In this document: one piece after another, positions 33,217 to 43,676 of the stretch | How the letters are laid out: the number at the start of each line of letters is the position of its first letter | How positions within the stretch are numbered: the stretch's first letter is position 1 | Assembly (NCBI RefSeq): GCF_008629675.1 | Contig: NZ_VWOX01000007.1 | Coordinates: forward strand, 1-64,000 | Source: Roseiconus nitratireducens | GTDB taxonomy: Bacteria > Planctomycetota > Planctomycetia > Pirellulales > Pirellulaceae | DNA: 64,000 nucleotides | Direction of reading: 5' to 3' | Program-made: the position numbers and the translations under genes | Notes under the pieces: model-generated | Database searches by the model: none | What the model saw: the letters and a program-made list of their open reading frames with translations, nothing else | What the model was told of the DNA's origin: nothing

Positions 33217-33271
33217 GTCCCGTATCGTCAGACGTCCCGTATCGTCAAACGTCCCGTATCGTCAAACGTCC
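33217..33271. repeat. 17-bp tandem repeat across the end of the TlpA-like gene
   Basis: GTCCCGTATCGTCARAC is repeated at 33217-33233, 33234-33250 and 33251-33267, then begins again (GTCC). The copies differ at one base. The third copy contains the stop codon (33262-33264) of the minus-strand TlpA-like gene, so copies of its last codons and stop are repeated downstream of the gene. Confidence 0.92.
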
Positions 33272-34125
33272 AATGATTTCAGGAACGGGATCACGTCTTT
33301 CTCGTAGGTGAATCCCAGCGTCTCGCCGCTATCGATGAACCGTTTGACCAGCGTGCCCTGGGCATCGTAAATCAGGACCGCCGGAATCGACGGTAGGTCC
33401 AATTCCGCGAACACGTCTTCGCTGGCCGTCTGGCAGATGAAGTTTTGGAAGTCGGCATCGACCGCCGTCAGGAAGGCGTTGACTTTGTCGGCATAGGTTT
33501 CCGGGGGCCGGCTCTTCCGCCCGTCGTAGTCGACATCCACGCCGATGCAAACGATCCGTTCGGGCATGTCACGGTGAAGTTCGACCAAGTGGGGGAACTC
33601 CTTGATGCAGGGTTCACACACGGTGGACCACAAATCGACCACGGTGATTTTTCCGGTCCCCTGGACACGTTGTTCGATCTCCTTCCAGGAAGCGAATTGG
33701 GCCCTGACATCCTGGCCGCCGGTCTCGCCGGAGCCCGAGTCCGTCGCTGGCGGAGCGTTTGACTGGGACTGGGGCGGGGCGACGTCAGGCATTTCGATGC
33801 CTCCGCCGCCGGCTTTCGCGGGGCCACCGCCGGATGGATCTTCCGGGGCATCAGCGGGCAGTTCGGTTTCCGGAAGCTGCAAGCCACCGGAGGGCGAAGT
33901 CGACGTGGGTTGATTGTCGTTCTCGGTCACGGGACTGGACGACGGGGCCGGCGCAGCGGCCGCGCCGCCCGGCTCGGAACTCGGCTCCACCCGGGAACCG
34001 GTCTCTGGAGGCACTTGATCAGTGTCGGCGGATCCACCACAGCCGGTGATTGCGAGGGCCGCGATGGTGAACGCCACGACCGAGGGACCGTGCAGAGAAC
34101 GAATGCGGGGAAACGGGAACGTCAT
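33262..34125 (-). CDS. TlpA-like thioredoxin-fold lipoprotein
   Basis: A 287-residue lipoprotein with lipobox LAITGC (C29). A low-complexity Pro/Ser/Gly/Glu linker of about 110 residues follows, then a thioredoxin-fold domain of the TlpA/ResA kind. The redox motif is C170-EP-C173 in WSTVCEPCIKEFPHL. The domain continues with CIGVDVDYDGR and PAVLIYDAQGTLVKRF. It probably reduces disulfides in the cell envelope, for example in cytochrome c maturation. The long linker would let it reach away from the membrane. ATG at 34125 gives a normal lipoprotein signal; an upstream start would not. The 3' end lies in a 17-bp tandem repeat. Confidence 0.88.
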   Translation of the reverse strand: MTFPFPRIRSLHGPSVVAFTIAALAITGCGGSADTDQVPPETGSRVEPSSEPGGAAAAPAPSSSPVTENDNQPTSTSPSGGLQLPETELPADAPEDPSGGGPAKAGGGGIEMPDVAPPQSQSNAPPATDSGSGETGGQDVRAQFASWKEIEQRVQGTGKITVVDLWSTVCEPCIKEFPHLVELHRDMPERIVCIGVDVDYDGRKSRPPETYADKVNAFLTAVDADFQNFICQTASEDVFAELDLPSIPAVLIYDAQGTLVKRFIDSGETLGFTYEKDVIPFLKSLDV

Positions 34126-34411
34126 CTTGGCGGGCCTGCCGTTAGGGGGTGTGGGAAGCGATCGAATTGATCTCCGATCGGTGCCGGATCGAACGGAAAA
34201 CCGATGGGCGAGCACCTTCGATTCGATCGAGTCACGGGATTTCAGATAGACTGGGTGCAGGACCCGTTCGAACCGGATGCGATTGTACCGGTAAATGGGG
34301 AAAGCGTCGATTTCGCCGCCCCCTACTTCGCCGGTGCCATACCGCGGTGAGTGACGCAGAGCGAATTTCTTTTCTTAGACACTTTTTAGAAGCAGATAGC
34401 AGACTTCGTTG

Positions 34412-35044
34412 ATGAGCGACGGGGACCTTTCAACGACCGAGTTGGTGGTGGCTTCGAAGCAGGGCGATAACGCCGCGCTGGGGCAATTGCTGGAGCAGTA
34501 TCGCGGGTACTTGCTGATGCTTGCCCATCGCAACCTGTCGGAGCGATTGCGGCGGCGGGTCGATCCGGTGGACATTGTTCAGGTCACGTTTTTGGAAGCC
34601 AAGCGTGATTTGCACATGTTTCGGGGCGAATCACCCGGTGAATTTGCAGCCTGGCTGCGAAACATGCTGAAGAACAATGTCGCGACCGCGGTCACGCGGC
34701 ACGTGATGACGCAGAAGCGGTCGATGCGAAAAGAGGTCAACGCGGATGGAAAAGCGGCCGACGATTCGGCCGGGTCGCCGTGGATCACCCAGTTGCCCGG
34801 CAGCACGACCAGCCCGTCGGGTGTTGCCATCAAATCCGAAGCCGCGATGGCGTTGCTCGAGGCGTTGCACCAGTTGCCGGAAACCCAAGCCGAAGCGATT
34901 CGGTTGCGTTACATGGAAGGGCTGCCCCTGGCTCAAATCGTCGAACGGATGGGAAAGTCCGATACCGCGGTGGCCGGACTGCTCAAACGCGGATTGCAAA
35001 AGCTGCGGACGCTGATCGATTCAGAAAACAATCCCTGGCTGTGA
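34412..35044 (+). CDS. ECF-type RNA polymerase sigma factor, planctomycete kinase-linked group
   Basis: A 210-residue sigma factor with region 2 (about residues 20-90) and region 4 (about 150-205). Region 2 includes RRRVDPVDIVQVTFLEAKRDLHMFRG and EFAAWLRNMLKNNV. Region 4 includes ALHQLPETQAEAIRLRYMEG and the helix-turn-helix LAQIVERMGKSDTAVAGLLKRGLQKLR. ECF factors of this build in planctomycetes often sit beside Ser/Thr kinases, as here, where one starts 320 bases downstream. No anti-sigma factor with a zinc motif is adjacent, so control may be by phosphorylation rather than a classic anti-sigma factor; that is inference. ATG at 34412 is used; TTG at 34409 is adjacent. Confidence 0.9.
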   Translation: MSDGDLSTTELVVASKQGDNAALGQLLEQYRGYLLMLAHRNLSERLRRRVDPVDIVQVTFLEAKRDLHMFRGESPGEFAAWLRNMLKNNVATAVTRHVMTQKRSMRKEVNADGKAADDSAGSPWITQLPGSTTSPSGVAIKSEAAMALLEALHQLPETQAEAIRLRYMEGLPLAQIVERMGKSDTAVAGLLKRGLQKLRTLIDSENNPWL

Positions 35045-35364
35045 CGCAAGAACGCCATTGCGGTCTTTGACTGCCGCGGTAGCCAAGATCCAGTTCGCGA
35101 CGGCGAAAAGACGCCCCGGCGGGCGCGCCCCGACCGCCGCGCCGTTTCGGCCCGGACTTACTGCGGCGGCCCGGACTTATTGCGGCGGTCCGCAGATATT
35201 GCGGCGGCGCGGGCAACCCGAACGTTGATTGCCGATGACCTGTCGAAGAAAATACATTCCCTGAACGCCCGTCGGCTGTTTGGCGACTCCGTCGCTTATC
35301 ATGCAGCTTCTTCTCTGCCCCAGACACACTCGCTACCCAGTGGCGGTCAACACCGCTTCGCTCC
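35045..35364. other. Intergenic region between sigma factor and kinase
   Basis: About 320 bases, no gene. It contains three 19-bp tandem units listed separately and very GC-rich sequence before them. The last 80 bases before the kinase are less GC-rich and could hold a promoter, but I see no clear boxes. Confidence 0.5.
35151..35207. repeat. 19-bp tandem repeat upstream of the kinase gene
   Basis: CCCGGACTTACTGCGGCGG (35151-35169) is repeated with one change at 35170-35188. A more diverged copy, TCCGCAGATATTGCGGCGG, follows at 35189-35207. The period is constant at 19 bp. Confidence 0.88.
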
Positions 35365-37533
35365 ATGCCGACTTCGCCTGAAGCTGAAGACCCCATCGAC
35401 GAAGCGTTCGCAGCCTACCTGCGATCCTGCGATGAAGGTGCCGTCGGATCTCGGGAGCAGTTTCTTTCCCAGTTCCCCGACATGGCGGATGAATTGCGGC
35501 AGCTGATGGAGGCGGCTGACGCGATCGATCGATTCACCGGAGCAAGCATCGCGCCACAGGAGAGCGATGTTGCCGATGCCGGCGCCGAGACGATCGACGC
35601 GGAGTTCTTTGATCCGGCAGAATCCGGTGACGATCCGGCGGCAACCTTGCCCGAAGCCGATCGCCCCAGCGGCGACCAGGGACCGACGCTGCCCTTCGAT
35701 TTGGGCGACTACGAGCTGTTGGAGGTGATCGGACGCGGCGGGATGGGGGTGGTGTACCGGGCGACCCAACGGATGCTTGATCGAACCGTTGCGGTCAAAA
35801 TGATCCGGGGCGGCATGTTGGCCTGCGAGAACGACGTTCGGCGTTTTTACACCGAGGCACAGGCTGCGGCCGGGCTTCATCATCCCGGCATCGTACCGGT
35901 GTATCAGTTCGGTCAGCGGGCCGGACATCATTTCTTCTCGATGGCGATGATCCAGGGAACTGATCTGCAGCGAAAGATCAACACCGAGGAGATGGCCATT
36001 GCCGACGCGGCGCGGTACGTCCGCGACGTTGCCGAGGCAATCGAGCACGCACACCAGAACGATGTCCTGCACCGGGATCTTAAACCGGCCAACATCTTGA
36101 TCGACCGCGCCGACCAGGTGCACATCACCGACTTCGGGTTGGCCAAACACTTGGGAGCCGACAGCAGCGTGACCGGCAGCGGCGCCGCCGTCGGAACGCC
36201 CAATTACATGGCCCCGGAGCAAGCCGGCGGGCACAGCGATCGGGCGACCCGGCAAAGCGATGTTTATTCGCTCGGCGCGATCCTGTTCGCGTGCGTCACC
36301 GGACGGCCACCGCTAGTAGGTGACTCGGTCGTTGAAACCCTGATGCAGGTGGTTCACCAACCGCCACCCTTGATGCGGTCGTTGCGCAGCGGCGTCCCTG
36401 CGGATTTGGAAACCATCGTCGGCAAGTGCTTGGAAAAGCAGCCGAAGAAACGTTATCAGTCGGCCCAGGATTTGGCCGATGACTTGGACGCGTTTCTGGA
36501 AGGGCGGCCGATCAACGCGCGGCCGCGAAACCGGGTGATCAAGACTTGGCATTGGGTCGCCGGCGTGCCACTTGTCGGAGCGTTGATCGGACGGAAGGTG
36601 GTGGGCACCACCGCGGGGCATCGCCGATTTCAGGCCGCCATGTTGCTGTTGTTTGCGATGCTGCCGTTCTTCCTGGTCGGGGCTGCCGTCTGGTGGAACC
36701 ATCACTCCCAGTCGATGCCGGAACAGTTGACCCTGGCCGGCGGTTTGGATGGCGGTGTCTACAACACGGTATCGGCGGCGCTGGCGGATCGATTGCAGCA
36801 ATCTCATGGCGTCGAATCTCGCGTCGTTTCGACCAGCGGTTCGTTGGACAATCGTTCGCGGCTGCTGGCCGGCGAAGTGGACCTTGCACCGATGCAATCG
36901 GCGGCCATTCGTGGCGGCGAACTGTGTGTCGTCGCCCCGCTGTTTTACGAAGCGGCACACCTGCTGGTCCGCGCCGATGACCTGGAAGCTGCCTCGGGCC
37001 AGCTGGCCGGCAAGGTGATTGCGGTGGGGCCGGTCGGCAGCGGGTCCCGGACAACGGCCGAAATGATTCTGGATTCGTTGGAATTATCTCCAGATATCTC
37101 GCCACGGCGGGTGATCGAGTGGCGGGACTTGGGAAAGCCGGAGTCACCGACCGTGGCGCTGATTTGCGTGGGCCGTGGCAGCTCGCTAGTGGAGGGACTG
37201 CTGCGTTCGGGGTGGGTCCTGGTGCCCATTCCCGAGAGCATTTCGATCTCGCTGCAACACCCCACGCTCAGGCCGATCACGATCGATCGCGGCGATTATT
37301 TGGCCGCGGAGATTCCCGCGACAGGCGTGCAAACCGTTGGCACGACGGCATTTCTTGCGGCCCGACGCGATGCACCCGCGGCGTTGGTTCGGGCCTCGCT
37401 GGAAGAACTGTATCGCCCACCGCAGATCTTTCCCCGGTTGATTCCCAGGGACCACGCCGCCGAGTGGCAGGGGCTGGATTTTCATCCGGAAGCCCGACGC
37501 TACTTTGCCTCGACCGACGATCCTTCCTCCTGA
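35365..37533 (+). CDS. Transmembrane Ser/Thr protein kinase with TAXI-type solute-binding domain
   Basis: A 722-residue receptor-like kinase. Residues 1-110 form an acidic N-terminal extension. The kinase domain (about 115-380) is complete: glycine loop GRGGMGVVYRA, K145 in VAVKM, catalytic HRDLKPAN (D238), DFGLA (D256), GTPNYMAPEQ and QSDVYSLG. A single transmembrane helix lies at about 424-444. The outside part (about 455-722) matches TAXI-type (TRAP-associated) solute-binding proteins: LDGGVYNTVSAALADRL, STSGSLDNRSRLLAGEVDLA, LLVRADD and GPVGSGSRTTAEMIL. Such domains usually bind glutamate-like or other small acids for transport. Here the domain is fused to a kinase and would act as a sensor. 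It lies downstream of an ECF sigma gene and upstream of a histidine kinase. Confidence 0.92.
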   Translation: MPTSPEAEDPIDEAFAAYLRSCDEGAVGSREQFLSQFPDMADELRQLMEAADAIDRFTGASIAPQESDVADAGAETIDAEFFDPAESGDDPAATLPEADRPSGDQGPTLPFDLGDYELLEVIGRGGMGVVYRATQRMLDRTVAVKMIRGGMLACENDVRRFYTEAQAAAGLHHPGIVPVYQFGQRAGHHFFSMAMIQGTDLQRKINTEEMAIADAARYVRDVAEAIEHAHQNDVLHRDLKPANILIDRADQVHITDFGLAKHLGADSSVTGSGAAVGTPNYMAPEQAGGHSDRATRQSDVYSLGAILFACVTGRPPLVGDSVVETLMQVVHQPPPLMRSLRSGVPADLETIVGKCLEKQPKKRYQSAQDLADDLDAFLEGRPINARPRNRVIKTWHWVAGVPLVGALIGRKVVGTTAGHRRFQAAMLLLFAMLPFFLVGAAVWWNHHSQSMPEQLTLAGGLDGGVYNTVSAALADRLQQSHGVESRVVSTSGSLDNRSRLLAGEVDLAPMQSAAIRGGELCVVAPLFYEAAHLLVRADDLEAASGQLAGKVIAVGPVGSGSRTTAEMILDSLELSPDISPRRVIEWRDLGKPESPTVALICVGRGSSLVEGLLRSGWVLVPIPESISISLQHPTLRPITIDRGDYLAAEIPATGVQTVGTTAFLAARRDAPAALVRASLEELYRPPQIFPRLIPRDHAAEWQGLDFHPEARRYFASTDDPSS

Positions 37534-37598
37534 TCGCGACCGGTGAAATGTTCGCACCTTGGCGCGGTGTTTCTTCACGTCGGCGCCGCCGCCGTTGA

Positions 37599-37654
37599 AA
37601 TCCGAACAACCGTCATGATCGATAGAGAAAGACGGATTGTCCTCGTTGTTCGGA
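37599..37654. promoter_or_regulatory. Perfect 11-bp stem-loop between the kinase and histidine-kinase genes
   Basis: ATCCGAACAAC (37599-37609) and GTTGTTCGGAT (37644-37654) are perfectly complementary. An inner pair, CGTC/GACG, shortens the 34-base loop. It lies 72 bases before the histidine kinase ATG and has no T-run, so it is more likely an operator or intercistronic RNA structure than a terminator. Confidence 0.6.
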
Positions 37655-37726
37655 TGCACGCCAAACGCTCGACCGGGACGACGAAACCTATGGTTCCTTT
37701 GGGCAAAGGTCAGAAGGAGCATTGGA

Positions 37727-40033
37727 ATGCCGTCACAGCGGCCCCCATCAAGTTGGGATGGGGGAAATCAGGGTCCCGGAGATCACTCTGCGGATCACGA
37801 CAATCACCACCCCCAGGGTCCCTGGGACGTCGCCGGCGAATCGTCGGGCGCGAGCGTTGATGAATGGACTGACGACAACGCGACCGCTTTTCCTTCGACC
37901 GATCTCAACGGTCTGCCGCACTCCCCAACAGGAATCGACGCGCCGTCCACCGTCCCCGCGGAGAACGATGCTGCCGACGGCGGCTTGGGACAGAAAACCG
38001 ACCACGCACGCTCGCTGCGAAGCAAGCTCGTACTGGCTCTGGCGGGGATCTTCGCGGTTGTCGTCGGGGTCGACGAATTTGTTCGACAGCAGGTCATCTC
38101 GCCGGAATTCGCGAAGCTGGAACGCATCGCTGCGATGAAGGAGACGCACCGGGTCCGTTCGGCGCTCAATGCAGAATTGGACTTTCTGGCCGGTGCGGCC
38201 GCGCTAGACCTGCATCAATGGGAGACCACCACGGATTCGAACGCGGTGAATCCGTCCTCGCAATCGGCGCGTCCCGGGCCTCCTGCGTCATCTACTGCGG
38301 GCCGGATGGACATTCGACCTCTCTGGTCCGCCCATGTCGGCACCGACGGACGTTGGAGCTGGCTTCCGAATACCCCGGAGGTGACCGCGCCCGCACCGCA
38401 ATCGGATGAGAGTGAAAGCCCCCGCGCGGTTGATGGCCTTCAGTTCCCCAGCCTGTCCGCGAGCCTGTTCGCCACCGCGGCTGAGCATCAAACATCCGAG
38501 CTCGGACCAACACCCGACGCCCTCTCCGCGAATCCGCTGCGGGGATTGACGCGAGGCAGCGATCAACAGCTGTACCTGTATTGTGCATTGCCGTTGGAAC
38601 TTGAAACGTCGCCGAAGGCCGATGCGCAACGCGCCGCCGGATCGCTTCCGCCGGCAACGGAGTTCTTCGTCGCGGTCCGCCGCCTGGATCAGCAAGTGAT
38701 TCAGGAGCTCGAGCATCGGACCAGCGTCGAGTTCACCATCGATCCGTTGGACGCATCGGCAGGGTCGTTGGAAGGCATTTGCGTCGATGCCGAATCCGAA
38801 ACACGGTTGCGCGTTCAGTCGCCGCTGCGCAACGCGGCCGGCGAGCCGTTGGCACGACTTTCCATCGTGCTTCCACGCGACATGATGTTGAGCAGCGAAC
38901 GCGCCAAGGCGTTTGCCCGTTACCTGTCGCTGTGCGGGGCATGCGCCTCCTTGTTGATTCTGTTGTTGTTGCTGCAGCGGATCGTGATCGGACGTGTGGA
39001 AACCATTCGCGAAGCTGCCGAAAGCATTGGTCAGGCGGGCGTCATTGATCCTCGGGCGACGTCGGGAGCGTTGCGCGTCACCGGTCAGGACGAGATCGGA
39101 CAATTGGCCCAAGCGTTTGAAAGGATGCGACGACGACTGGGAGAGACACAGCGGCGACTGAGTGACGCGTCGCACGCGGCGGGAATGAGTTTGGTGGCCA
39201 ACACGGTGATTCACAACGTCGGCAACGTTTTGACGAACGTGAACAGTCTGGTGGAGACGGTGACCGAGCAAGTGGATCAATTGCGAATTGAACCGTTGAA
39301 CCGGCTTGCCGAACGACTGCGGCGAAACGCCGACGACGCGGATCTCCAGATGGCCACACCGGATTATCTGCGGCGGCTGAGTGAAACGTTGGAAGACGAC
39401 AAGGATGAACTCGCGCGGCTGCTGCACACGCTGTCTGAGAATGTCCAACACATTCACGAGGTCATTCGTGAGCAGCGACGTCACGCCCGTCGTTCGGTCG
39501 ACGTCAGTGATGTCGCCGCAATCGACGTGATCGAAGAAGGGGTGAGCTATTGCCAGGCGAAGCTCGATCGCGACGAGATTCGCGTGGAGCTTGCGGTGCC
39601 AACGGATCTGAGGTTTCAAACGGATCGGTCCCTCTTGGTGCAGGTCTTTATCAACATCATCGGCAATGCTCAGCACGCCTTGGCGGAGGTCAAAGGTCGC
39701 CAGCCGACGCTGGTCATCCAAGCCGAGCGGTTGGGTGATTCCATCGAGTTTCGGTTCCGGGACAACGGCTGCGGGATGGACTCCAGAACGCTGTCGATGG
39801 CATTTGATGCACATTTCACGACCCACCAGAAGGGAAGCGGTTTGGGTTTGCATTTCTGCGCGATCGCGGTGAAGCAGTTGGGGGGCTGCATCCGCGCCTG
39901 CAGCGAAGGGCCCGGCAAGGGGGCGGTGTTTTCGGTCGAATTGCCCCTTTCGACTTCGCACGTGGCGTTGCCGGAGGGTGACTTGTCGGGCAGAGTCGCT
40001 TCGGACAGCTCGAAGGAAAAAATCCATGCTTGA
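37727..40033 (+). CDS. Membrane sensor histidine kinase with CHASE4-like domain
   Basis: A 768-residue sensor kinase. The first 95 residues are a disordered, partly His-rich cytoplasmic tail. TM1 (about 100-116) and TM2 (about 398-420) enclose an extracytoplasmic region of about 280 residues. Its start, EFAKLERIAAMKETHRVRSALNAEL, resembles CHASE4. A HAMP domain (about 421-475) follows. The phospho-acceptor is H496 in the box VIHNVGNVLTNV, an HNxGN variant of the usual HExRT/SP. The ATPase domain has NIIGNAQHAL, DNGCGMD and GSGLGLH. The ATG at 37727 is backed by AGAAGGAG nine bases upstream. The stop overlaps the response regulator gene by eight bases, so they form a two-component pair. Confidence 0.9.
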   Translation: MPSQRPPSSWDGGNQGPGDHSADHDNHHPQGPWDVAGESSGASVDEWTDDNATAFPSTDLNGLPHSPTGIDAPSTVPAENDAADGGLGQKTDHARSLRSKLVLALAGIFAVVVGVDEFVRQQVISPEFAKLERIAAMKETHRVRSALNAELDFLAGAAALDLHQWETTTDSNAVNPSSQSARPGPPASSTAGRMDIRPLWSAHVGTDGRWSWLPNTPEVTAPAPQSDESESPRAVDGLQFPSLSASLFATAAEHQTSELGPTPDALSANPLRGLTRGSDQQLYLYCALPLELETSPKADAQRAAGSLPPATEFFVAVRRLDQQVIQELEHRTSVEFTIDPLDASAGSLEGICVDAESETRLRVQSPLRNAAGEPLARLSIVLPRDMMLSSERAKAFARYLSLCGACASLLILLLLLQRIVIGRVETIREAAESIGQAGVIDPRATSGALRVTGQDEIGQLAQAFERMRRRLGETQRRLSDASHAAGMSLVANTVIHNVGNVLTNVNSLVETVTEQVDQLRIEPLNRLAERLRRNADDADLQMATPDYLRRLSETLEDDKDELARLLHTLSENVQHIHEVIREQRRHARRSVDVSDVAAIDVIEEGVSYCQAKLDRDEIRVELAVPTDLRFQTDRSLLVQVFINIIGNAQHALAEVKGRQPTLVIQAERLGDSIEFRFRDNGCGMDSRTLSMAFDAHFTTHQKGSGLGLHFCAIAVKQLGGCIRACSEGPGKGAVFSVELPLSTSHVALPEGDLSGRVASDSSKEKIHA

Positions 40034-42047
40034 GTTTGATTCCGAACGCCGTGTCCTGATCGTCGATGATCAGCCCCAGATTCACGAAACGTTCTCTCGC
40101 ATTTTTCAAGCCGACCAGCGGAACCGATCGGATCTGGACGCTTTTGAAGCCAGGTTTCTGCTGGACGACCCGCGTCAGCCGGACGTCAAGTTGCAGGCCG
40201 AACCGCGATTCTTGCTGACGCATGTCTACAGCGGCGAAGAAGGCGTGCATCGGGTTGAAACCGCGATGGCCGAGGAAGCTCCCTTCGCACTCGCCTTCGT
40301 GGACATGAGGATGCCCAAAGGCATGGACGGTTTGGAAACGGTCGAAAGGCTGTGGAAAGTTGATCCCAACCTGCACGTGGTGATTTGCACGGCCTTCAGC
40401 GATCACACCTGGGACACCGTCTTGGGAAGACTGGGCTACAACGACAGGCTGTTGCTGTTGCGGAAACCTTTCTCCCAGGATGAAGCCCGGCAGATGGCGC
40501 TGGCGTTGACGGAGAAGAGCCGGTTGGCGGCCCGACAACGGGAAAAAGTCAGTTTGCTGAAGAGCGAGGTCGATCGTCGACGCAAGGCGGAGACGGAGTT
40601 GCGCGACATGGCGCACCGGGATGCGCTCACATCGCTTCCCAACCGTCCGTTCTTGCTGCAGCGGCTTGAACGGCTGCTTGCCGGTCAAGGTCAACAGCGG
40701 CAGAGTCACGATGCGATTCTGTTTTTGGATCTGGATAATTTCAAGATCATCAATGACAGCCTCGGGCACGACGCCGGTGACGAACTGCTCAATCAGGTGG
40801 CCGAACGCCTGAAAGAATGCGTGCGGGAGAAAGACACCGCCACGCGCTGCCAGCAACCGCAGCTCCCCGCGGAGTCCCATGGCAAAACCGTTCGGCTTGG
40901 AGGCGACGAGTTCGTCGTTTTGTTGCAACGTTTGGATCGGCCCGATGACGCGGTGACCGTTGCCAGGCGGATCGTCGAGCGTGTCAGTGAACCCTTTCAC
41001 TTGGGCGACCGGATGGTCACGGTAGGGACCAGCATCGGGATCGCATTCATCGATGATTCCATCCGCGATGCGCACGACGCGCTTCGAAACGCCGATACCG
41101 CGATGTACCAAGCGAAAAACACCGGGAAGGGGCAGATCGCGGTGTTTGACCAAACCATGCACGATGCCGTCGTGGCGCGGCACGAATTGGAGGCTCAATT
41201 ACGCAGCGCGCTCAAAGCGGAAAAGTTCGAACTGCGGTATCAGCCGATCGTCAACCTTCAAGCCGGAACGATCATCGGTGTCGAAGTCCTGACCCGCTGG
41301 CGAGGCGACGATGGGCAATACATCCCGCCGGACGAATTCGTGCCGCTGGCCGAAGAGATCGGACTGATCAATCACTTCACCGAATGGGTGTTGGAACGTT
41401 CGATGCGCGAGTTCAACGCGATGATGTCATCGCTGGACGACGTGCAACGCCCGCATGCCTACCTGGGTGTGAACATCTCCCGCCGTCAGCTCGGCGATCC
41501 CTTCTTTGCGGATCGGTTGCGGGCCATTGTCGAACGGACCAAGTTTCGTTGGTCGCTTAAACTGGAAATGGCCGAGCATTCCGATTCCAGGCACAACGAA
41601 CGTTCGCTGAAGACGATGCTGGACCTGCATCAAAGTGGGATCGGAATCCACATCGATGACTTCGGCAAGGGGAATTCATCGCTGACCTGTTTTCAAGCTT
41701 CCCCCTTTGAAACGGTGAAGATCGATCGCACGTTCACCGCATCAATCGCGAATGACCACAGTCATGCGGTCATCGCCCAGGCCATCGTTCAACTGGCTCA
41801 TCACTTGATGACCAACATCGTTTGCCAGGGCGTTGAATCGCCCGAGCAACTGAAGCTGTTGCAGCAGTGGGGCTGTGACATGGGGCAAGGGTATTTCTTC
41901 GCACCCCCGTTGGATATCCACCGCCTGCGGAAGCTGCTGATCGAACCGACGCAGAGCGCGGGGATTCGCACGTTGCGGAAACTTGCGGTGCTTCCCGATG
42001 TCTATCCAAACGCTTCTCTGGGAAACGTGATCGATCTGGAGCCGTGA
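40026..42047 (+). CDS. Response regulator with GGDEF and EAL domains (c-di-GMP turnover)
   Basis: A 673-residue output protein of the histidine kinase encoded upstream. The receiver domain (1-155) has acidic pair D14/D15, phospho-acceptor D93 in FVDMRMP and K147. It is lengthened by about 30 residues after the first helix (about 28-62). The GGDEF domain (about 190-355) has an intact active site LGGDEF (292-296) and FLDLDNFKIINDSLGHDAGD; I see no RxxD inhibitory site at the usual place. The EAL domain (about 390-655) reads EVL in place of EAL, but keeps VNIS, IDDFGKGNSSL, VKIDRTF, QGVE and GQGYFF, so phosphodiesterase activity is plausible. The typical LELTES is altered to LEMAEH. Net direction of c-di-GMP change cannot be predicted. 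Confidence 0.93.
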   Translation: MLEFDSERRVLIVDDQPQIHETFSRIFQADQRNRSDLDAFEARFLLDDPRQPDVKLQAEPRFLLTHVYSGEEGVHRVETAMAEEAPFALAFVDMRMPKGMDGLETVERLWKVDPNLHVVICTAFSDHTWDTVLGRLGYNDRLLLLRKPFSQDEARQMALALTEKSRLAARQREKVSLLKSEVDRRRKAETELRDMAHRDALTSLPNRPFLLQRLERLLAGQGQQRQSHDAILFLDLDNFKIINDSLGHDAGDELLNQVAERLKECVREKDTATRCQQPQLPAESHGKTVRLGGDEFVVLLQRLDRPDDAVTVARRIVERVSEPFHLGDRMVTVGTSIGIAFIDDSIRDAHDALRNADTAMYQAKNTGKGQIAVFDQTMHDAVVARHELEAQLRSALKAEKFELRYQPIVNLQAGTIIGVEVLTRWRGDDGQYIPPDEFVPLAEEIGLINHFTEWVLERSMREFNAMMSSLDDVQRPHAYLGVNISRRQLGDPFFADRLRAIVERTKFRWSLKLEMAEHSDSRHNERSLKTMLDLHQSGIGIHIDDFGKGNSSLTCFQASPFETVKIDRTFTASIANDHSHAVIAQAIVQLAHHLMTNIVCQGVESPEQLKLLQQWGCDMGQGYFFAPPLDIHRLRKLLIEPTQSAGIRTLRKLAVLPDVYPNASLGNVIDLEP

Positions 42048-42227
42048 AGTCGGGTTGGCCAGACGATCGCTGGGCTGTGGCCACGAGGAGTTGGCCGGCT
42101 GGAATTCTACGGTGTGGAAAGGTTGGTCTCTGGTTCACGCCCACGTCAACCTAGCGGTTAGACTGGGCGATCTGGTTGCTGCTTTCCCTCGCAGCAAGTT
42201 CCCTCGCCCCGGATTCTGGAATTTGTG

Positions 42228-43676
42228 ATGACGATTCGCTTGGCCCGGCTGTGGCTGTTTTGTCTGCTGATGAACGTGTTCGTTGCCGGAGCCGTCGTCG
42301 CGGCGGCGGCCGGCGATTCGTCCAGGTCCGATGATCAGCCATCCGCGGCCGCGGCCAAAAATGTGCTGATGATCGTGGCGGACGATCTGAAGGCCTGTGT
42401 GCTGGGATGCTATGGCGATCCCATCTGCCGCACGCCCAACATCGACGCGTTGGCTCGCCGCGGCACCGTGTTTCAACGAGCCTATTGTCAGGGCACCTGG
42501 TGTCGGCCGTCGCGAATCTCCTTCATGTTCGGCCGCTATCGCGATCAGGGCAATCGGACGCTGGGCGAGCACCTGCAAACCCACGGACTGTACACGGCCC
42601 GGGTGGGAAAGATCTTTCACATGCGGGTTCCCGGGGACATCATTGCCGGAACCGATGGACCGGATCACCCCGAATGCTGGACCGAGCGATTCAATGCGCC
42701 CGGACTGGAAGCACACACGCCTGGCGAGTATTCGTGCCTGAATCTGAACGTGGTCACTCGGTCGCTGGTCGACCGCCAGTCCACTCGAATGCCACATCGC
42801 ATGTTCGTCGCGGTCAAATCCGATGGCGACGGAAGTCGTCAACCAGATTTCAAGGCGGCCAGCAAGGCGATCGAGCTGCTCCAGGCGCCGCGTGAAGGAC
42901 CGTTCTTTCTGGCAGTCGGGCTCGTCCGCCCGCACTACCCGATGGTGGCACCGGAGGCATTCTTCGATCGCTACCCGGTTGATCAAATTGAGATGCCGCG
43001 CAACGCGGACGACGCGGGGGATGACATTCCCAGGGCCGGTTGGGCCGGGACCCGAAACAATAACAATCCGATCGGCAAGTACCCCGAAAACCAACGGCGG
43101 ATGTGGTCAGCGTACTACGCCAGCGTCTCATTCATGGACCAGCAGGTCGGCAGGATTCTCGCCGCCTTGGAAGCTTCGCCGCATGCAAACAATACGTCGG
43201 TGATCTTTACCAGCGACCACGGATATCACTTGGGGGAGCATGGCTATTGGCAGAAGAGCAATTTGCACGAAGAGGTCATTCGCGTCCCGTTGGTCATCAG
43301 CGCGCCGGGGATGCAAGCCGGCAGGACCGAATCGATCGCCGAACTGGTGGATTTGTATCCGACGATTTGTGATCTGACGGGGACCCCGACCCCGAAAGAG
43401 ACCCAGGGGGTGAGCCTGCTTCCGATCTTGCGAGACAGCGACGCCAAGGTCAAATCCGAAGCACTGTCATTTCACAACGGTCATTCGCTCCGGACCGACC
43501 GCTGGCACTACATCCGCTACCAAAACCAGACTCGGGAGCTTTACGACATGCGTGCCGATCCACAGGAGACCCGGAACTTGGCGCAGGACTCCGAATACGC
43601 CGAGACGCTGCGCACGTTGGATCAGACGCTCGAAGGCAAGCTGGCTCATTTGAGCGGACGGAATACCCAGAGGTAA
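42228..43676 (+). CDS. Secreted sulfatase, iduronate-2-sulfatase-like
   Basis: A 482-residue exported enzyme that hydrolyses sulfate esters, probably on algal polysaccharides. A signal peptide (about residues 1-28) comes first. The metal-binding start is VLMIVADDLKACVLGCYG (D52/D53). The formylglycine site is C92 in WCRPSR, the cysteine-type motif that needs an activating enzyme. Later active-site segments are TSDHGYHLGEHG and KSNLHEEVIRVPLVI. The ADDL-x-x-x-x-G-CYG pattern places it nearer iduronate-2-sulfatases than arylsulfatases. The ATG at 42228 follows a GTG at 42225. Its 3' end overlaps the convergent secreted-protein gene by 31 bases. Confidence 0.93.
   Translation: MTIRLARLWLFCLLMNVFVAGAVVAAAAGDSSRSDDQPSAAAAKNVLMIVADDLKACVLGCYGDPICRTPNIDALARRGTVFQRAYCQGTWCRPSRISFMFGRYRDQGNRTLGEHLQTHGLYTARVGKIFHMRVPGDIIAGTDGPDHPECWTERFNAPGLEAHTPGEYSCLNLNVVTRSLVDRQSTRMPHRMFVAVKSDGDGSRQPDFKAASKAIELLQAPREGPFFLAVGLVRPHYPMVAPEAFFDRYPVDQIEMPRNADDAGDDIPRAGWAGTRNNNNPIGKYPENQRRMWSAYYASVSFMDQQVGRILAALEASPHANNTSVIFTSDHGYHLGEHGYWQKSNLHEEVIRVPLVISAPGMQAGRTESIAELVDLYPTICDLTGTPTPKETQGVSLLPILRDSDAKVKSEALSFHNGHSLRTDRWHYIRYQNQTRELYDMRADPQETRNLAQDSEYAETLRTLDQTLEGKLAHLSGRNTQR

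Follow-up and report, generated by a model that had tools for sequence, protein, structure and literature searches.

A TAXI-domain Ser/Thr kinase beside an ECF sigma factor and a c-di-GMP two-component pair in Roseiconus nitratireducens: probably two modules sharing a conserved locus

Four signalling genes stand side by side on one strand in Roseiconus nitratireducens, and their arrangement raises the question of whether an alternative sigma factor, a Ser/Thr kinase and a c-di-GMP two-component pair operate as one circuit or as separate neighbours. The window analysed here is a 64,000-nucleotide stretch at the start of contig NZ_VWOX01000007.1. Its first-pass annotation described genes for an ECF sigma factor, a Ser/Thr kinase (STK), a histidine kinase (HK) and a GGDEF-EAL response regulator (RR) in the same orientation, the last two overlapping by eight bases. 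All four genes are found on the + strand, and the RR start codon (ATG 40026) precedes the HK stop codon (TGA 40031-40033). The annotation also took the four genes, by inference, to form one circuit. The reading favoured here, with a probability of roughly 0.6, is instead that two signalling modules share a conserved locus. New features of the locus are the fusion of a TAXI sensor to an ECF-linked kinase, the constrained pocket of that sensor, a two-module history, an altered EAL site and a candidate c-di-GMP operator.

The first gene of the block (34412..35044, + strand) encodes an ECF sigma factor of TIGR02984 subfamily 1, which is Planctomycetaceae-specific; the match to this profile (Sig-70_plancto1) scores 223.4 bits, above the curated cut-off of 183.75. 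Planctomycetes are rich in kinase-linked ECF sigma factors, and we know of no signal for any of them. ECF-STK pairs are ordinary in the host genome, where a kinase gene immediately follows at least 9 of the 16 TIGR02984-type ECF genes. No anti-sigma factor gene is present among the scanned neighbours of the pair in the block. The STK-linked planctomycete groups ECF59, 61, 62 and 217 have both the phylum and the gene pairing in common with the block (PMC8999054) and are likely home to its sigma factor; a TAXI sensor, present in the block, is not mentioned for these groups in the open-licence texts consulted.

Direct activation of an ECF factor by a kinase is known from EcfP/PknT of Vibrio and EcfK/PknS of Xanthomonas (PMC8999054, PMC13147305). 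In these pairs, which belong to group ECF43, an ECF gene likewise adjoins the gene of a transmembrane Hanks-type kinase, whereas the outer domain of the block's kinase, compared with PknT and PknS, is a TAXI domain. ECF43 factors lack the charges of the sigma-2.2 DxxD motif, membership requiring uncharged replacements together with a phosphorylatable Thr. The block's factor reads D51-P-x-D54, with both Asp residues present in all 42 sequences aligned, and therefore falls outside the group. Since D51 and D54 are kept, the charge-restoring mechanism of EcfP is not directly applicable, and the detail must differ from ECF43. EcfK is phosphorylated in the linker between sigma-2 and sigma-4, a region that reads T133-S134-P135-S136 in the block's factor; among its orthologues S-P-S is invariant and is preceded by T or S. 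This TSPS linker was considered as a specific phosphosite and rejected: TPSG or TPSQ is also seen in paralogues that have no kinase gene beside them. The linker is largely subfamily-wide and so is no proof of phosphorylation. Autoregulation of the ECF gene was likewise set aside as weak, the conserved CAGATAAACTG-like upstream block resembling a housekeeping -10 more than an ECF promoter.

The second gene (35365..37533, + strand) encodes the kinase, in which a PknB-like catalytic domain is joined through a transmembrane helix (about 417-449) to an extracytoplasmic TAXI domain. The Pfam Pkinase match covers residues 116-368 (8.6e-51), and NMT1_3 (PF16868) covers residues 460-714 with 48 bits against a gathering cut-off of 27; the TIGR02122 TRAP_TAXI model reaches 63.5 bits, under its cut-off of 84.35. 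The predicted structure has a mean pLDDT of 84, with both folded parts confident and a long helix (417-449) between them. A fold search with this model gives PknB structures at Z 36 (rmsd 1.4, 265 aligned), and all matches listed are to the kinase domain, so that the TAXI half is supported by sequence comparison. The catalytic residues K145, E164, H236-R237-D238, N243 and D256 do not vary among 56 orthologues. No TRAP membrane component occurs among the genes scanned at 33262-43676, the TAXI domain being fused to a kinase instead. A search of open-licence papers found no description of a TAXI-domain kinase, in line with that part of the novelty claimed in the annotation.

The TAXI domain aligns over its full length with TtGluBP (1us4, E 6e-8), Q511 corresponding to Gln78 of that protein, and other solved TAXI proteins align with it as well. 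Glutamate binding by VcGluP depends critically on two residues, Y45 and Q93, although Y45 is found in only 78% and Q93 in only 54% of 59 TAXI proteins surveyed (PMC11574862). The pocket stretch of the block's kinase (36760..36951, + strand) holds Y466, S493, Q511 and E529, which align to VcGluP Y45, S75, Q93 and E125 (PMC11574862). Y466, Q511 and E529 are invariant in 56 of 56 orthologues and S493 is nearly so; both equivalents of the glutamate-binding pair are thus present in every orthologue, and only 11 of the 259 TAXI-domain positions, these three among them, are invariant at all. The positions of VcGluP D157 and Y200/M201 are occupied by other residues, which makes a glutamate-like ligand likely rather than certain. 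Judged from these residues, glutamate or a relative is the most likely ligand. As the TAXI half is similar to proteins whose ligand is known and retains their key residues, its own ligand is predictable and directly testable.

VcGluP, TtGluBP and BP0403 belong to the TAXI family like the block's domain, and the Tyr/Ser/Gln/Glu pocket positions of VcGluP and TtGluBP are common to it. These proteins serve transporters, whereas the block's domain is fused to a kinase, and the neighbours scanned include no transporter gene. The closest working precedent for the sensor side is the GlnH-GlnX-PknG system of mycobacteria and corynebacteria, in which a solute-binding protein controls a Ser/Thr kinase (PMC6069109). 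There, a periplasmic amino-acid-binding protein steers the kinase, as proposed for the block (PMC6069109, PMC9769921). GlnH-GlnX-PknG consists of three proteins and uses a different binding-protein family, while the block places sensor and kinase in one polypeptide, the likely target of which is a sigma factor. Stand-alone TAXI proteins of about 435-510 aa, above the standard TAXI length, occur phylum-wide (L085, L086, L088, L091, L244-L250), and the five that were aligned (L085-L088, L091) have the block's pocket residues.

The third gene encodes the sensor HK (37727..40033, + strand) and probably starts at ATG 37727, which is preceded by AAGGAG, rather than at TTG 37637; counted from this ATG, 193 bases separate it from the kinase gene. 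Two transmembrane segments, a CHASE4-like extracytoplasmic region, HAMP, an H-box (VIHNVGNVLTN; His526 in the numbering from 37637) and HATPase make up the protein. The earlier label of a CHASE4-like histidine kinase holds for the kinase, whose HAMP and HATPase_c matches in Pfam are clear. The CHASE4 part is less firm: in the protein itself it matches at E=0.05, below the Pfam cut-off, and 9 of 20 orthologues reach E<=0.01, with a best value of 1.5e-8.

The fourth gene (40026..42047, + strand) encodes the RR, with matches to Response_reg, GGDEF and EAL domains and D93 as the receiver Asp. HK H526 and RR D93 are retained wherever the HK-RR pair is intact. RLGGDEF, which conforms to the RxGGDEF signature of diguanylate cyclases, is intact in all 22 RR sequences. 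Alignment to solved EAL domains shows that the EAL motif reads EVL and that the EGVE glutamate is replaced by Gln601, at the position of the RocR metal ligand E352 (PMC7911125), leaving the metal-ligand set of an active EAL phosphodiesterase incomplete. Gln occupies this position in 13 of the 14 genus members, and Glu is found in the HK-less member and in all other genera. Because the metal-binding Glu is replaced and GGDEF is intact, the RR of the genus probably yields net c-di-GMP synthesis. Two-component pairs with a GGDEF-EAL regulator, such as Lpl0330/Lpl0329 of Legionella, likewise have an HK gene adjoining a REC-GGDEF-EAL gene; the block differs from them in its lost EAL metal ligand (in the genus), its CHASE4-like sensor and its ECF-STK neighbour. 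Between its RxxD region and RLGGDEF, the GGDEF domain is also extended by an insert of about 16 residues (40830-40895), and its Pfam match falls into two pieces. In genome G205 (L051), the kinase and RR genes have no HK between them, the RR receiver is altered (FIDLQVSG) and its EAL domain has Glu.

Gene order in relatives bears directly on how the four genes belong together. A scan of named genomes with the whole-kinase alignment picked up kinase motifs above all, and most of its hits were unrelated kinases. The TAXI half was found in 135 of 241 family genomes, including all 14 of the genus; beyond the family its matches are mostly shorter stand-alone proteins. Sixty neighbourhoods were fetched, 55 with a TAXI-kinase and 5 with a shorter stand-alone TAXI protein. 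The first-pass annotation had suggested such a comparison around kinase orthologues, and these do lie near the sigma factor and HK genes: 41 of the 55 loci have a related ECF gene immediately upstream, and the four-gene order is retained in genera g1, g16, g43 and part of g54 (G205 without HK). Counted by parsimony on a quick kinase tree, ECF adjacency runs through one 43-row clade with two losses (three changes in all), and RR adjacency was gained once, in a 32-row clade, and then lost several times (five changes in all).

The RR orthologue lies beside the TAXI-kinase in 23 of the 31 genomes that have one. In one of the others (G171) HK-RR is 28 kb from the kinase, two are on short contigs where adjacency is not judgeable, and five, all of g54, have TlpA-HK-RR together with ECF and TAXI-kinase both absent. 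In these five (L136-L140) the HK is short, its sensor is lost and there is no upstream element. HK and RR have been lost as a pair in several lineages, with G205, which has RR without HK, as the exception. The TAXI-kinase of g42, g5, g35 and g52 has no related ECF gene beside it and must therefore have other targets there. Divergent from the block in the window is a gene for a TlpA/ResA-like thioredoxin-fold lipoprotein (33262..34215, - strand; lipobox LAITGC, CxxC as CEPC), and a TlpA-like gene adjoins the block in g1, g16, g43, g48, g54 and one g63 genome.

Between the kinase and HK genes lies a directional element, GAAACCTATGGTT (37683..37695, + strand), 42 bp before the HK ATG, with the dyad-like core RACCTAKGGTT; it is the sole match within the 64-kb window. 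The pattern GAAACCTAGGGTT, represented in the window by GAAACCTATGGTT, is conserved with small changes amid diverged DNA at the genus loci, in g16 and g43 and in G170, and most of the remaining g54 genomes have weaker variants. The element usually stands 42-53 bp ahead of the HK start with a ribosome-binding site between, and in G171 it precedes HK-RR although the pair is away from the kinase. It was considered as an ECF -35 box, which is unlikely because the start codon is too near and a -10 partner is missing; comparison of the upstream regions found no second conserved block at -10 spacing from it. An Rfam search of the locus gave no riboswitch match up to E=1. The element may resemble the BldD box.

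Paired absence of ECF and STK, paired loss of HK and RR, the 28 kb that separate HK-RR from the kinase in G171, and an upstream element belonging to HK-RR separately argue for two neighbouring modules rather than one demonstrated circuit. In the first module, the outer Venus-flytrap TAXI domain would bind a small ligand akin to an amino acid, with glutamate or a relative the most likely, and its closure would be relayed via one transmembrane helix to the PknB-like kinase; by analogy with EcfP and EcfK, the kinase would then most likely phosphorylate the neighbouring ECF factor and turn it on (or off). In the second, the CHASE4-like HK would phosphorylate D93 of the REC-GGDEF-EAL protein and so set c-di-GMP, the output in the genus probably being synthesis. 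The modules would have the locus and the divergent TlpA-like neighbour in common and keep separate upstream regions. A TAXI domain might also act as a docking or structural module beside a constitutive or partner-controlled kinase, as solute-binding folds can lose binding and the family name alone is uninformative on function. The VcGluP pocket positions that differ would suit such a role, but the invariance of Y466, Q511 and E529 makes it very improbable.

A single circuit, in which the ECF factor activated by the TAXI-kinase transcribes HK-RR and an outside ligand thereby sets the supply of the c-di-GMP pair, is unlikely. Gene order conserved in four genera speaks for it, as do the RACCTAKGGTT-type element found ahead of the HK in almost all loci that combine ECF-STK with a full-length HK, and the joint lack of ECF-STK and element in five genomes. 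Those five, however, represent one genus and have lost the HK sensor too, the element is too near the HK start for a -35 box and has no conserved block spaced as a -10, and it is also found at other c-di-GMP genes. Plain synteny would make the modules neighbours by descent only, functionally unlinked, a view that fits the 28 kb between them in G171 and the synteny in g1, where the sulfatase, p345 and p507 genes are often kept in place as well. Against it, the outer neighbours vary in g16, g43 and part of g54 and TlpA-ECF-STK-HK-RR stays constant, so that the grouping is either under selection or at least ancient, and descent alone is quite an unlikely explanation. The two-module reading accommodates a conserved locus with separate upstream regions. 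As to cross-talk between the modules, it would be a long shot that a single polypeptide serves as receptor for outside glutamate, phosphorylates a sigma factor on Ser/Thr in response and feeds a c-di-GMP response via a shared RACCTAKGGTT regulon operator.

The wider distribution of the element suggests a role in c-di-GMP control. A strict AACCTAGGGTT search of 14 genomes gives 25 sites, far below the reversed control pattern, and 8 of the 25 are at HK-RR. Among the RACCTAKGGTT sites of five genomes, those outside HK-RR include six that lie no more than about 200 bases upstream of c-di-GMP genes or operons on the same strand: HDOD-GGDEF (two genomes), FHA-EAL, HD-GYP-PAS-GGDEF, an HK/RR-HD-GYP operon and, in a second genome, the relative of this operon. 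Four of these six placements are independent by orthology. Each genome has only about 6 to 10 GGDEF genes, and the chance expectation of such placements is well under one by a rough estimate that assumes about 20 c-di-GMP operons per genome. RACCTAKGGTT may thus be the operator of a c-di-GMP regulon; it is a candidate rather than a demonstrated operator because manual inspection of the sites followed the choice of the pattern and many further sites lie in coding DNA or ahead of unrelated genes. As a candidate, it offers a first handle on c-di-GMP gene control in this planctomycete lineage. The element at 37683-37695 and those at L109, L125, L128, L142, L143 and L144, which precede HK-RR and other c-di-GMP turnover genes, always run in the direction of the gene. 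An orthologous patatin-like phospholipase gene in G214 and G206 (L145, L157) is also preceded by the element. In G215 (L129, L132; contig C174), near-identical direct repeats spaced by about 858 bases contain AACCTAGGGTT, with no recognised c-di-GMP gene adjacent.
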